Of a stretch of 64,000 nucleotides of DNA, positions 1-64,000 are shown piece after piece. The notes under the pieces are model-generated. The model was not told the origin of the DNA. It worked only from the letters and a program-made list of their open reading frames with translations, and made no database searches. The DNA is from Tragulus kanchil (Eukaryota; Chordata; Mammalia; Artiodactyla; Tragulidae). The stretch lies in contig JAIOJX010000024.1 in NCBI GenBank assembly GCA_022376925.1, forward strand, positions 168,981,608-169,045,607. Direction: 5' to 3'. Position numbers and translations under genes: made by a program. Within the stretch, counting starts at the first letter, position 1; every line of letters starts with the position of its first letter.

Positions 1-1410
1 CCAGAACCTGGCCCGGGTGGCGGACCGCTGTGAAAACAACTACAGACAGGCTACAGACAAGAGAAGAGCTTCCCCTGCAGAGACCAAAGCCCATACAACC
101 CAATCCCTAGCTAACGTCGATCATCGAGTAAATGCACTGGCCAACAATGTGCTCCAAGCAGCTCTGGAGAATGGAGTCTTCCATCAGTCATCTCTCACAG
201 GCTGTGGACATTCATACAGAGAAAGTGGCTCGGACAGAGACCGGTATTTTGACAACAAATAAAAATACATCAAGAACTCACAAGAGAACATGCAGCATCC
301 TGTAAGGAAAATCTGGAAAACTACTGACTATACAGTCCTGGATGAGGTGGGCCTCGGTGTCAAGCTTGGAAACAGCAGCCTGCAGGCACTGGCTCACCGT
401 CAAGAACAAAGCCTCCCACTCGGAAGGCGCCGAGCACTCCCACCTCGGGGTGGGGAATGTTTGGACGAAGTGCCCCTTACAAACCCTGGAACCCGTTAAA
501 CCAGCAACAGTTCCTGAAGACGACATGACAAGTCCTGCTTAAGCTGGGAAGTCAGCATAGTCCGGGCAGGACGGCTTCTTTACATCAGAGACTGAGGACA
601 CGCAGGGAAGCAGCGGGGGCAGCGGAAGCCAAGACAACAGTGGCGGCGGCCGCCCGGCTGCCCCGTGGCCCTGCCTACACCCGCCCCCACGGCTGGACCC
701 GCGGGCCTGGGCTCAGCTTCCGGTTCCCAGCAGGGCAAAAGGCCCGACCCCACTCGAGCGCTTCCCCTGTACCTTCTGTTGGCTAGCGACGGCCTCCCCC
801 TGCGCTCAGTCTGCCTCTCAGCCTCGTGCTAACGGAGGTCTACTCTGTCCTCAGAATTCAACTGCTGACCGTCCACCTCCAGCACCAGCACCTCCACCAG
901 ATGGCATTCCCATGGTCGATGACTCTCCCCCTCCGCCCCCGCCACTGCCAGCGGATGAGGGAGATGAGGAGGCCGTAGTGCAGTATGATGACCTGTATGC
1001 AGATGGGGATCCTGCTTGGGTCCCCAAGAATTATATTGAGAAAGTCGTGGCAATATATGATTCTACAAAAGACAAGGAGGATGAGCTGCCATTTACGGAG
1101 GGTGCGATCACCTATGTAATAAAGAAGAATGACGATGGCGGGCATGAAGGAATCTGCAATCGAGTGGCTGGTCTGTTCCCAGGGAACTAAGTGGAATCAA
1201 TCGTGCACTATACTGATTAAATTTCTGCTTTTAAATTTTAAAGAAGGGTCTTATTATCACCCCATCATACTGTAGGACTACTACAGTCAACAGAATCATC
1301 TTAAAATGGTTTAAAATGTGCCCATATTTTCAGGACATGCCATCTTATTGGTATGATTGAATGTCTACCTGTAAAGAGAATATCTCTGAGGCAGTTTGGA
1401 TTGCCAGACA
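1..1410 (+). pseudogene. ABI1P: ABI1 processed pseudogene (retrocopy), 5' part and first copy of the duplicated body
   Basis: An intronless, decayed copy of Abl interactor 1, an adaptor of the WAVE actin-regulatory complex. The reading begins at the window edge with the ABI1 N-terminal region (CENNY.QATDKR at about 17-75), then the segment ending TLEPVKP..VP..DMTSPA (about 480-540), a shortened Ser/Pro-rich middle, a proline run ([11 protein letters not shown], about 915-950) and the C-terminal SH3 region ([20 protein letters not shown]) ending in a stop at 1188-1190. It spans several exons without introns. It is broken: the frame changes near 260-290, there is an in-frame stop at about 540, and roughly a quarter of the normal coding length is missing. 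In the SH3 domain the ALYDY-type motif reads AIYDS, and the ligand-binding Trp in the DDGW motif is Gly. The C-terminal wording ([24 protein letters not shown]) fits ABI1 better than ABI2. Confidence 0.85.
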
Positions 1411-2536
1411 GCAGCATCCTGTAAGGAAAATCTGGAAAACTACTGACTATACAGTCCTGGATGAGGTGGGCCTCGGTGTCAAGCTTGGAAACAGCAGCCT
1501 GCAGGCACTGGCTCACCGTCAAGAACAAAGCCTCCCACTCGGAAGGCGCCGAGCACTCCCACCTCGGGGTGGGGAATGTTTGGACGAAGTGCCCCTTACA
1601 AACCCTGGAACCCGTTAAACCAGCAACAGTTCCTGAAGACGACATGACAAGTCCTGCTTAAGCTGGGAAGTCAGCATAGTCCGGGCAGGACGGCTTCTTT
1701 ACATCAGAGACTGAGGACACGCAGGGAAGCAGCGGGGGCAGCGGAAGCCAAGACAACAGTGGCGGCGGCCGCCCGGCTGCCCCGTGGCCCTGCCTACACC
1801 CGCCCCCACGGCTGGACCCGCGGGCCTGGGCTCAGCTTCCGGTTCCCAGCAGGGCAAAAGGCCCGACCCCACTCGAGCGCTTCCCCTGTACCTTCTGTTG
1901 GCTAGCGACGGCCTCCCCCTGCGCTCAGTCTGCCTCTCAGCCTCGTGCTAACGGAGGTCTACTCTGTCCTCAGAATTCAACTGCTGACCGTCCACCTCCA
2001 GCACCAGCACCTCCACCAGATGGCATTCCCATGGTCGATGACTCTCCCCCTCCGCCCCCGCCACTGCCAGCGGATGAGGGAGATGAGGAGGCCGGTAGTG
2101 CAGTATGATGACCTGTATGCAGATGGGGATCCTGCTTGGGTCCCCAAGAATTATATTGAGAAAGTCGTGGCAATATATGATTCTACAAAAGACAAGGAGG
2201 ATGAGCTGCCATTTACGGAGGGTGCGATCACCTATGTAATAAAGAAGAATGACGATGGCGGGCATGAAGGAATCTGCAATCGAGTGGCTGGTCTGTTCCC
2301 AGGGAACTAAGTGGAATCAATCGTGCACTATACTGATTAAATTTCTGCTTTTAAATTTTAAAGAAGGGTCTTATTATCACCCCATCATACTGTAGGACTA
2401 CTACAGTCAACAGAATCATCTTAAAATGGTTTAAAATGTGCCCATATTTTCAGGACATGCCATCTTATTGGTATGATTGAATGTCTACCTGTAAAGAGAA
2501 TATCTCTGAGGCAGTTTGCGGATTGCCAGACAGCAG
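292..2536. repeat. Direct duplication D1, offset 1119-1122 bp
   Basis: Copy A 292-1414, copy B 1411-2536. The junction falls on a shared GCAG. Differences are a one-base insertion in copy B near 2091 and GG versus GCGG near 1399/2519. It cuts through the ABI1 retrocopy at an arbitrary point. Confidence 0.95.
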
Positions 2537-3078
2537 TCTGCACAAGAGGCTGCCTGTCACAGATTGTGCTTGTATTCCTTACATATTGCTAACCTGATGA
2601 CCAGCCTCAGTGTTTCGCAGTGTGGGGGCTAGTGAACAAATCGAGATTCAGACCATGCCATTCACGTGTCACAGCGCAGCACGGTTACTGACACTCTGTC
2701 AGACTAATACTAACACCGGAAAACTTAAATGCTGGTGCTGGCCATACTTCTTGTTTAGACTCTCCCATTCTTGCAAGATACTGTTTGTTTAAAGTATGCG
2801 TACAAATTTATATATTGAAATATACTTTAAAAAATCCAAGATGCTGCCGATCTGTGTAACACTTCCGTGGAGGACTCCTGCTTAGGTCTCGTCTCTAAGC
2901 TCTCCACATGAAACAAAAACAAAAGGCTTCCCGGTAATGTTGTCATTTGTACCTGAGTTTCTTTATGAGTGAATTTGCATTATAAATTTTTTCCATCCGT
3001 AAATACATAAGTGAACCAAAGGTTTCTGTCCTTTCCTTCACTGGTTTACTTTAAAAATAATAATAATAATAATAAATA
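1411..3078 (+). pseudogene. ABI1P: ABI1 retrocopy, duplicated body plus 3' UTR remnant
   Basis: Second appearance of the retrocopy body from the mid-coding region to the stop (2308-2310), followed by sequence reading like the ABI1 3' UTR. Relative to the first copy there is an extra G in the GAGGCC(G)GTAG segment near 2091, which shifts the frame before the [12 protein letters not shown] segment. After about 2536 the sequence is single copy. The retrocopy probably ends near the AAT-rich tract with AATAAA at about 3055-3080, which could be a decayed poly(A) tail. The exact 3' end is inferred. Confidence 0.75.
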
Positions 3079-3080
3079 AA
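3055..3080 (+). repeat. (AAT)n short tandem repeat, possible decayed poly(A) tail
   Basis: An uninterrupted AAT run ending in AATAAAAG. It may mark the 3' end of the ABI1 retrocopy, because retrocopy tails often turn into A-rich microsatellites. No target-site duplication can be checked, since the 5' end lies outside the window. Confidence 0.6.
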
Positions 3081-3754
3081 AGATACTGATTTATTGCAGA
3101 ATCATGGTTCTATTTTCTCAATATATTAACTTGGAAAAAAATTTAGTCTTATCTCAACCTATCCCAACAGCAGTGGCTGATTTTTTTGCAGAATTTAAAA
3201 TCAGAGATGGTAATTTACAAGTCAGTCTGCTGAATCCCTTTTCTAAAGTAACTTTTTCAAAGCTAAGGTCACATATGGACATACTCATGCTGTAGGTGAG
3301 ATTCTTAAGGACTCTGATTCTTAAGGATGCTCTGAATCCTCTAGCTTTCCAGTGGACTGCCATGTACTGGATCAATGAAAGGAAATGATAATTATCTTTT
3401 ACTTTTTTTTTTTTGGATTGCAATGGATATTTAAATAGGCAATGTTTAACCCATTACTTGGCACTAGCAAAAAAGATTTACATTTAAAAAGATTTTAAAT
3501 ATAAAATAATTGGGGGGGAAAGGTGTGGTACATATTAATCATTATCACCAACAGATCTGTACTGTCTTTGACATAAATGAAATACAACATATGCACTTTG
3601 TGTGTCTCCCCTTAAGGGGGGCGTGAGGGGTGTTTTCTCATCATGTGTGTAATTTTCTGTTGCCTAGAACCTTAAAGTAGAGCACTCAATTGTGGGTTTC
3701 CGTGTTTTGAGAATTTGCAAATTACAGTTATGTACTACTGGGCGTTACAGACAA
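3081..3754. other. Intergenic or intronic DNA, nothing recognised
   Basis: AT-rich, with short homopolymers (T-run at about 3405, G-run at about 3511). No exon-like frame, splice-flanked coding segment or familiar repeat was recognised. If LEO1 runs leftwards as expected, this is probably intron 1. Confidence 0.5.
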
Positions 3755-62800: not shown

Positions 62801-62929
62801 GGCCAAAATTTAAAAATATATATTAAAAAAAAAAGAATGTCAAGGGAGTTAAAGGAGGGAGAGGGATGCACAATGATCAAAGGAGAGCAGCTCTTGTTGT
62901 AGAAACGCTGCATTAACAAATAAACGCAG

Positions 62930-63285
62930 GGCTTCCCTGGTAGCTCAGTGGTAAAGAGTTCCCCTGTCAAATCGTTCCCTGATCCCAAATCGTTTACTGA
63001 TCCGGGAAGATCCCACATGCCGCAGAGCAACTAAGCCCGTGAACCACAGCTATGGAGCTTGTGCTCTAGAGCCTCGGAACCACAACTATTGAGCCCATGT
63101 GCCGCAAGGATTGAAGCTTGTGTGCCCTAGAACCCGAGTTCCACAAGAGAAGTCATTGTAACAAGAAGCCTGCTCACCTCAACTAGAGAGTGGTCCCCAC
63201 TCCCTGCAACGAGAGAAGAACCTACAGCAGCAGTGAAAACCCAGAATAGCCAAAAATAAATAAATAAATACAATTAAAAAAACAA
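62930..63285 (+). mobile_element. CHR-type tRNA SINE, long form, full-length
   Basis: GGCTTCCCTGGTAGCTCAGTGG, the duplicated CTCTAGAGCCTCGG and CCACAACTATTGAGCC body, GTGAAAACCCAGAATAGCC and TAAATAAATAAATA tail. Target-site repeats AACAAATAAACGCAG and AACAAATAAATTCAG (62915-62929 and 63286-63300). Confidence 0.88.
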
Positions 63286-63300
63286 AACAAATAAATTCAG

Positions 63301-63567
63301 TGGTTAGAACAACGCTCCCCTTTCTCTCGTTTTTATCTACTGTGTTCTTTTTACACCTGTTATTCAGATGGTATTATTTTAAATATACAAAATATAAAAC
63401 ATTTAAATTCCATCCCAACCACTTCAAGCCAGTATGTGAGCTTTGAAGTGACCTTTGCCTCCGCTTGAAGCTTGAGGATGCACATAATAATGGATAAAGG
63501 GTTGATAAACGTTTGGTTCTCTTCAGGAATGGTTACTAAGTCACTAAAAAATATGTTAACTTGCGTC
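63301..63567. other. Unique DNA, nothing recognised
   Basis: No gene or repeat recognised. Confidence 0.5.
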
Positions 63568-64000
63568 TCAACAAATTTGGCTTTGCTTGATAAATGGTTA
63601 TTTTGGTGGTCTTTGACACATAAATTCCCCAAGGAGGCACAATGCTTATTTATTGAATTCTAACCTCTTCTGATGATTGAACACTGATGGATGGGAGAGG
63701 AAAGGTGTCTTTAAGAATCTCGGGGGAGGGGGCTTCCCTGGTGGCCCAGTGGGTAGAGTCGGTCTGGCAGTGCAAAGGGCACCGGTTAGATCCCTGGCCC
63801 GGGAAGATCCCACGTGCCGCTGGACCCGTGTCCAATGCCGAGCCAGCGCTCTGCAGCGCATGCGCCCAGAGTCTGTGCTCTGCAACCAGAGAGGCCACTG
63901 CAATGGGAGGCCCGCGCAGCTCAAAGAATAAAGATAGGTGAAAATAATAATAATAAAAAATCAATAAGCTAGGCCAAAATTTAAAAATATATATTAAAAA

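Follow-up and report, generated by a model that had tools for sequence, protein, structure and literature searches.

Near-identical head-to-tail repeats of about 1.1 kb in a Tragulus kanchil contig: a very probable artefact of unmerged consensus blocks

Near the end of contig JAIOJX010000024.1 (hereafter C5; 169,165,107 bases) of the Tragulus kanchil assembly GCA_022376925.1 lies a stretch of 64,000 nucleotides in which segments of about 1.1 kb are followed, again and again, by a near-identical copy of themselves. This stretch, C5:168981608-169045607, is here called the window; its right edge is 119.5 kb short of the contig end, and positions given without a contig name are counted from its first base. 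The assembly totals 3,167,203,957 bases in 32 contigs, the longest among those whose lengths were inspected being C2 (297 Mb), while C22 has only 202,676 bases. A first-pass annotation of the window listed 23 head-to-tail duplications (D1-D23) and suggested as their source overlapping contig ends of about 1.1 kb, concatenated rather than merged. The question raised by this locus is whether the genome of the animal carries such copies, or whether they were written by the assembler. We argue from internal evidence that the duplications are very probably a systematic artefact of assembly, arising where consensus blocks were joined.

Comparison of the window with itself by BLAST recovered all 23 pairs at their reported places, with offsets that deviate by no more than 7 bp from those first given. 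Twenty-two of them form one series, on the same strand and head to tail, with offsets of 1074-1182 bp and copies 98.8-100% identical over 1048-1183 bp. Of the window, 37.4% consists of second copies of the series, in agreement with the redundancy of about 24 kb claimed for it. Members of the series include D6 (12759-13836 and 13851-14926; offset 1092; 99.1% identity), D8 (16434-17481 and 17533-18579; 1099; 99.9%), D9 (19490-20602 and 20609-21718; 1119; 99.5%), D12 (28595-29675 and 29694-30776; 1099; 98.8%), D14 (33439-34544 and 34543-35648; 1104; 100%), D15 (39731-40845 and 40866-41979; 1135; 99.9%) and D18 (50099-51190 and 51190-52278; 1091; 99.4%). D23 (62395-63576, and from 63568 onward; 1173; 99.5%) crosses the right edge by 748 bp, and its full length was taken from the extended comparison described below. 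One further pair, absent from the first list, has its second copy at 1-413 (offset 1090) and its first copy to the left of the window.

The threefold stretches that had been reported are also present: successive units overlap by up to 414 bp, and there offsets of 2.2-2.3 kb are seen. D3 (6063-7192 and 7193-8322; 1130; 99.8%) forms such a triple with D2 (4113-5194 and 5187-6266; 1074; 99.5%), as does D4 (7969-9022 and 9055-10113; 1086; 99.5%) with D3, and D11 (25263-26440 and 26445-27625; 1182; 99.7%) with D10 (23302-24437 and 24437-25576; 1135; 99.6%). Towards the right, D19 (53635-54725 and 54733-55822; 1098; 99.9%), D20 (55706-56780 and 56821-57895; 1115; 99.9%), D21 (57804-58881 and 58930-60007; 1126; 100%) and D22 (59594-60680 and 60697-61784; 1103; 99.7%) are chained, each forming a triple with the one before it.

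From the original set only D7 (14893-16174) has to be set apart, as its offset is 509 bp and it is bounded by copies resembling short interspersed nuclear elements (SINEs). Its identity is 91.8% over 777 bp, within which eight successive 60-column blocks (480 columns) are fully identical and the flanks are diverged SINE-like sequence; the roughly 480 bases from 15012 (to about 15491) equal those from 15521 (to about 16000). The two copies diverge inside SINE-like sequence on both sides, so the middle SINE is a hybrid of the outer two. Such a structure is expected where two SINEs have undergone unequal exchange, or where they have been misjoined.

The series continues beyond the window. In an extended stretch of 264 kb, comprising the window and 100 kb on each side, we counted 77 pairs of at least 300 bp with a mean offset of 1106 bp (standard deviation 32, range 1035-1212), and second copies account for 31.9% of the sequence. 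When pairs of at least 300 bp and at least 97% identity were sorted by geometry, 77 of 83 same-strand pairs lay at 950-1350 bp and the other six, which reflect triples, at 2000-2500 bp; this census of the 264 kb contained no same-strand pair at any other offset and no inverted pair, so the pattern is not one of chance. Looking elsewhere in the assembly, a check put forward with the first annotation, gave at least one pair in each of six places on six contigs (C1, C2, C5 at 60 Mb, C8, C15 and C30; 6-8 kb each, 44 kb in all). The pairs there, whole or cut by an edge, have offsets of 1070-1176 bp, and the 12 that were counted correspond, by a hand reckoning that allows for edges, to about one per 5 kb, against one per 3.4 kb in the 264 kb. 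The pattern is therefore not local, and it is probably genome-wide. Its claimed indifference to sequence content is matched by the G+C fraction, 0.449 in duplicated and 0.447 in remaining sequence. Scaffold gaps were considered as a source of the pairs and rejected, since no run of N sits at a junction: the three such runs in the 264 kb, at C5:168959135 (79 bases), 169075923 (874 bases) and 169079587 (139 bases), begin 1.2-2.3 kb from the nearest one.

Such a pattern very probably arose within the assembler. The program would build consensus sequence for short overlapping blocks out of fixed-size units, each block having a unit of about 1.1 kb in common with the next. Neighbouring blocks should be merged over this common unit; if at many joints they were instead written one after the other, the unit would appear twice, with the junction between its copies. 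Both the failure of the joining step and the use of long reads prone to insertions and deletions (indels) are presumed in this scheme. Unmerged blocks would account for the near-constant size, head-to-tail order, wide spread and content indifference of the pairs, and also for three properties considered below, namely indel differences loaded at the copy ends, triples where units overlap, and stepped spacing of the junctions. The part of the earlier proposal that invoked overlaps of about 1.1 kb, concatenated and not merged, gains support from the indel-rich and end-loaded differences, the vote among three copies, the stepped spacing and the doubled exons of LEO1. Its mention of contig ends fits less well: from one junction to the next the distance is 1.8-9.8 kb (in the 264 kb the median is about 3.1 kb) and none carries a run of N, so that "unmerged consensus blocks inside contigs" is the better description.

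The differences between copies are informative as to their origin. Across 84,367 aligned columns in the 77 pairs there are 208 gap openings and 109 mismatches; the gaps are mostly of one or two bases, and 69 of the 208 openings fall in homopolymers of four or more. Mutation normally yields many more substitutions than indels, and indel-rich differences can arise in a consensus made from indel-prone long reads. Of the 109 mismatches 46 fall in the first and last tenths of the copies, as do 181 of the 309 indel columns, and on the block reading these are the places where one block begins and the other stops. It is very unlikely that the copies are instead two alleles kept in one haploid sequence, i.e., a heterotype (haplotype) false duplication. 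An identity of about 99-100% is within the allelic range, but alleles would not be expected to differ by about twice as many indels as mismatches with both crowded at the copy ends, several pairs agree at every base (100%) across more than 1 kb, and nothing would lead allelic contigs to be of one common length. The threefold stretches, moreover, do not fit two alleles.

These triples also allow the block origin to be examined through the position of errors. With unmerged blocks, copy 1 would lie near the end of block n, copy 2 inside block n+1 and copy 3 at the start of block n+2, so if consensus blocks have poor ends the odd copy is expected to be the first or the third. In 17 triples, six of them free of differences, a single copy is odd at 50 columns: the third at 34, the first at 10 and the middle at six; the odd copy is thus a block-end copy in 44 of the 50 columns. 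Moreover, the first quarter of the stretch contains 28 of the 34 columns in which the third copy is odd, and the last quarter seven of the 10 in which the first copy is. First and third copies together have more odd columns than the middle copy in 10 of the 11 triples with differences, a count that is weak when taken alone, as it sets two copies against one; the positions of the errors carry most weight. The sequence left over between copies points the same way in part: it amounts to at least 11 bp in 29 of the 77 pairs, and in 13 of these 29 it resembles the expected continuation more closely than any sampled control does.

Junctions are spaced in steps. In the extended stretch 26 of 76 junction-to-junction distances measure 1767-2225 bp and none falls between 2225 and 2571 bp, with further clusters above. 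Below 700 bp the best period is 535 bp (R 0.426; 73 lengths under 7 kb), a value that none of 400 null replicates with a 300-bp jitter on every length could reach. We know of no reason for such steps in chromosomal DNA, while they would be natural for a program that divides reads into units of fixed size. The spacing bears likewise on the idea that the duplications were already in the reads, as chimeric molecules from amplification or library making that the assembler reproduced. Chimeras, too, would be spread widely and without regard to content; however, random single-molecule chimeras should lose the consensus vote, and neither one length nor stepped junctions would be expected of them, so we regard this origin as highly improbable.

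The consequences for a gene can be seen at LEO1. An open frame on the minus strand, which from its N-terminal letters we take to be the N-terminus of LEO1, occurs at 10709-11197 and again at 11836-12324 (stop-to-stop bounds, not exon bounds), 1127 bp apart and with identical translation, within D5 (10506-11625 and 11626-12753; 1120; 99.3%). A search with the Pfam model for Leo1 (PF04004) located two exons of the core domain at C5:168954646-168956513. Both are doubled, with copies 1113 and 1119 bp apart, and along the minus strand, on which they are read, they follow one another as A B A B. A stop reported in one of these matches sits in the splice-donor sequence GTAAG, so the exon is probably not defective. 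Were the duplications real, the product of a recent genome-wide process that placed a head-to-tail copy of about 1.1 kb at intervals of a few kb, with copies about 99.5% identical, these exons would be doubled in the animal and, by extrapolation, several hundred thousand recent events of one size would be needed. In favour of this is that the deposited sequence displays the pairs; against it is also that the differences crowd on the junction side, contrary to the prediction that they spread independently of the junction. We consider a real process barely credible.

Several observations weigh against the interpretation of the repeats as unmerged consensus blocks. Four of five loci of 3.1 kb (L004-L007, on C30) contained no pair, with one present in L008 on C15, and the short length of the C30 loci may be the reason. 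The absence of N at all 77 junctions is unlike the gapped false duplications of the literature. Some copies differ in mid-unit, for example in the pair at C5:168954421; of the triples with differences (11 in all), one has the middle copy as its worst, and in another the middle copy ties with the third for worst; one triple supplies 12 of the 34 third-copy columns, and columns are not independent of each other. In 16 of the 29 pairs with leftover sequence, that sequence does not beat the sampled controls. Between unit starts the periodic signal is weaker (period 534 bp, R 0.370, reached by two of 400 nulls), and the period near 267-270 bp predicted by a 256-base bin was not resolved in the junction spacings (R 0.20).

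The last point concerns which program might be responsible. An assembler built on a fuzzy Bruijn graph, of the wtdbg type, is a tentative first guess. In wtdbg and wtdbg2 neighbouring consensus units reportedly share one fixed-length node of 1024 raw bases, and the default for the overlap of units is reportedly 256. The common unit seen here (1106 bp, standard deviation 32) is near 1024 raw bases; a loss of bases in the reads could bring such a node to about 1.1 kb in the consensus, an 8% excess that is explained by this assumption only. Differences from the wtdbg scheme are the spacing steps of about 535 bp, among which a 256-base step was not resolved, and unit overlaps of up to 414 bp against 256. 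With the period near 267 bp not resolved, the steps cannot be tied to 256-base bins and the type of assembler stays a guess.

False duplication in general is a known class. In two studies (Rhie et al. 2021, PMC8081667; Ko et al. 2022, PMC9516828), homotype false duplications are tandem duplicates bordering unmerged sequence, by which genes gain false exons, with copies of about read length and a gap between them; Ko et al. name the assembly gap between copies on a scaffold as one of the primary characteristics. As far as these descriptions go, the series most resembles the homotype kind, with consensus quality unequal between copies and false exons, the blocks being presumed in our case. Unlike that kind, its copies are of a single size of about 1.1 kb and stand without a gap between them, and in the sequence examined a pair recurs every 3-5 kb. 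It works like the homotype class, but since no run of N starts within 1.1 kb of any of the 77 junctions it is not a full member. With heterotype false duplications, as described in the same studies, it shares near-identical adjacent copies in one haploid sequence, but its differences are indel-rich and end-loaded rather than spread allelic substitutions. The false segmental duplications from mis-assembly of another report (PMC2864568) are similarly spurious duplicates made by assembly software but appear to concern divergent chromosome copies. The fixed-offset pattern was not found in the accessible parts of the false-duplication literature (PMC8081667, PMC9516828, PMC9915519, PMC12621783), which is no proof of its absence in print.

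Other features of the region were noted alongside the series. A diverged match to LEO1 exon A lies at C5:168921780-168921878 (locus L035), about 33 kb from the main exons, with a diverged counterpart of exon B about 0.8 kb below it; these counterparts (140 bp at 83% and 167 bp at 77%) probably represent a genuine and old partial duplication of LEO1. Positions 1-2536 resemble a processed pseudogene and include what is presumably an ABI-type SH3 stretch; this sequence is overlapped by D1 (288-1414 and 1408-2536; 1120; 99.6%). Exon-sized matches to positions 1-1200 are collinear across 120 kb of C30, which is probably the parent gene of the ABI-like pseudogene, and two of them are the same 45-50 bases, 1098 bp apart, hinting at a further doubled unit. 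A provirus-like element occupies 42908-49375 on the minus strand, with ends like long terminal repeats (LTRs) that are 94.5% alike and frames which we take to be gag- and integrase-like. D16 (42971-44064 and 44065-45157; 1094; 99.5%) doubles most of one LTR-like end and D17 (46853-47963 and 47981-49093; 1128; 99.6%) part of the other, and together they inflate the apparent number of LTR pieces. D13 (31291-32390 and 32391-33490; 1100; 99.9%) overlaps a frame of a long interspersed nuclear element (LINE), presumably BovB-like, and other translations in the window are presumably of Bov-tA-like SINEs; repeats of these two kinds point to a ruminant.

If the sampled stretches are typical, between a fifth and a third of the 3.17-Gb assembly would be false sequence, and its removal genome-wide would leave 2.1-2.5 Gb; beyond the 264 kb, this extrapolation draws on 44 kb. 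Results taken from this assembly, be they gene counts, copy numbers, exon duplications or the dating of repeats, would then be wrong. The signature, i.e., same-strand pairs at one offset with differences on the junction side, is easily screened for in other assemblies. For Tragulus kanchil itself, genes such as LEO1 appear with doubled exons, which matters as data quality and not as biology, and the 1.1-kb duplications are almost certainly absent from the chromosomes of the animal.

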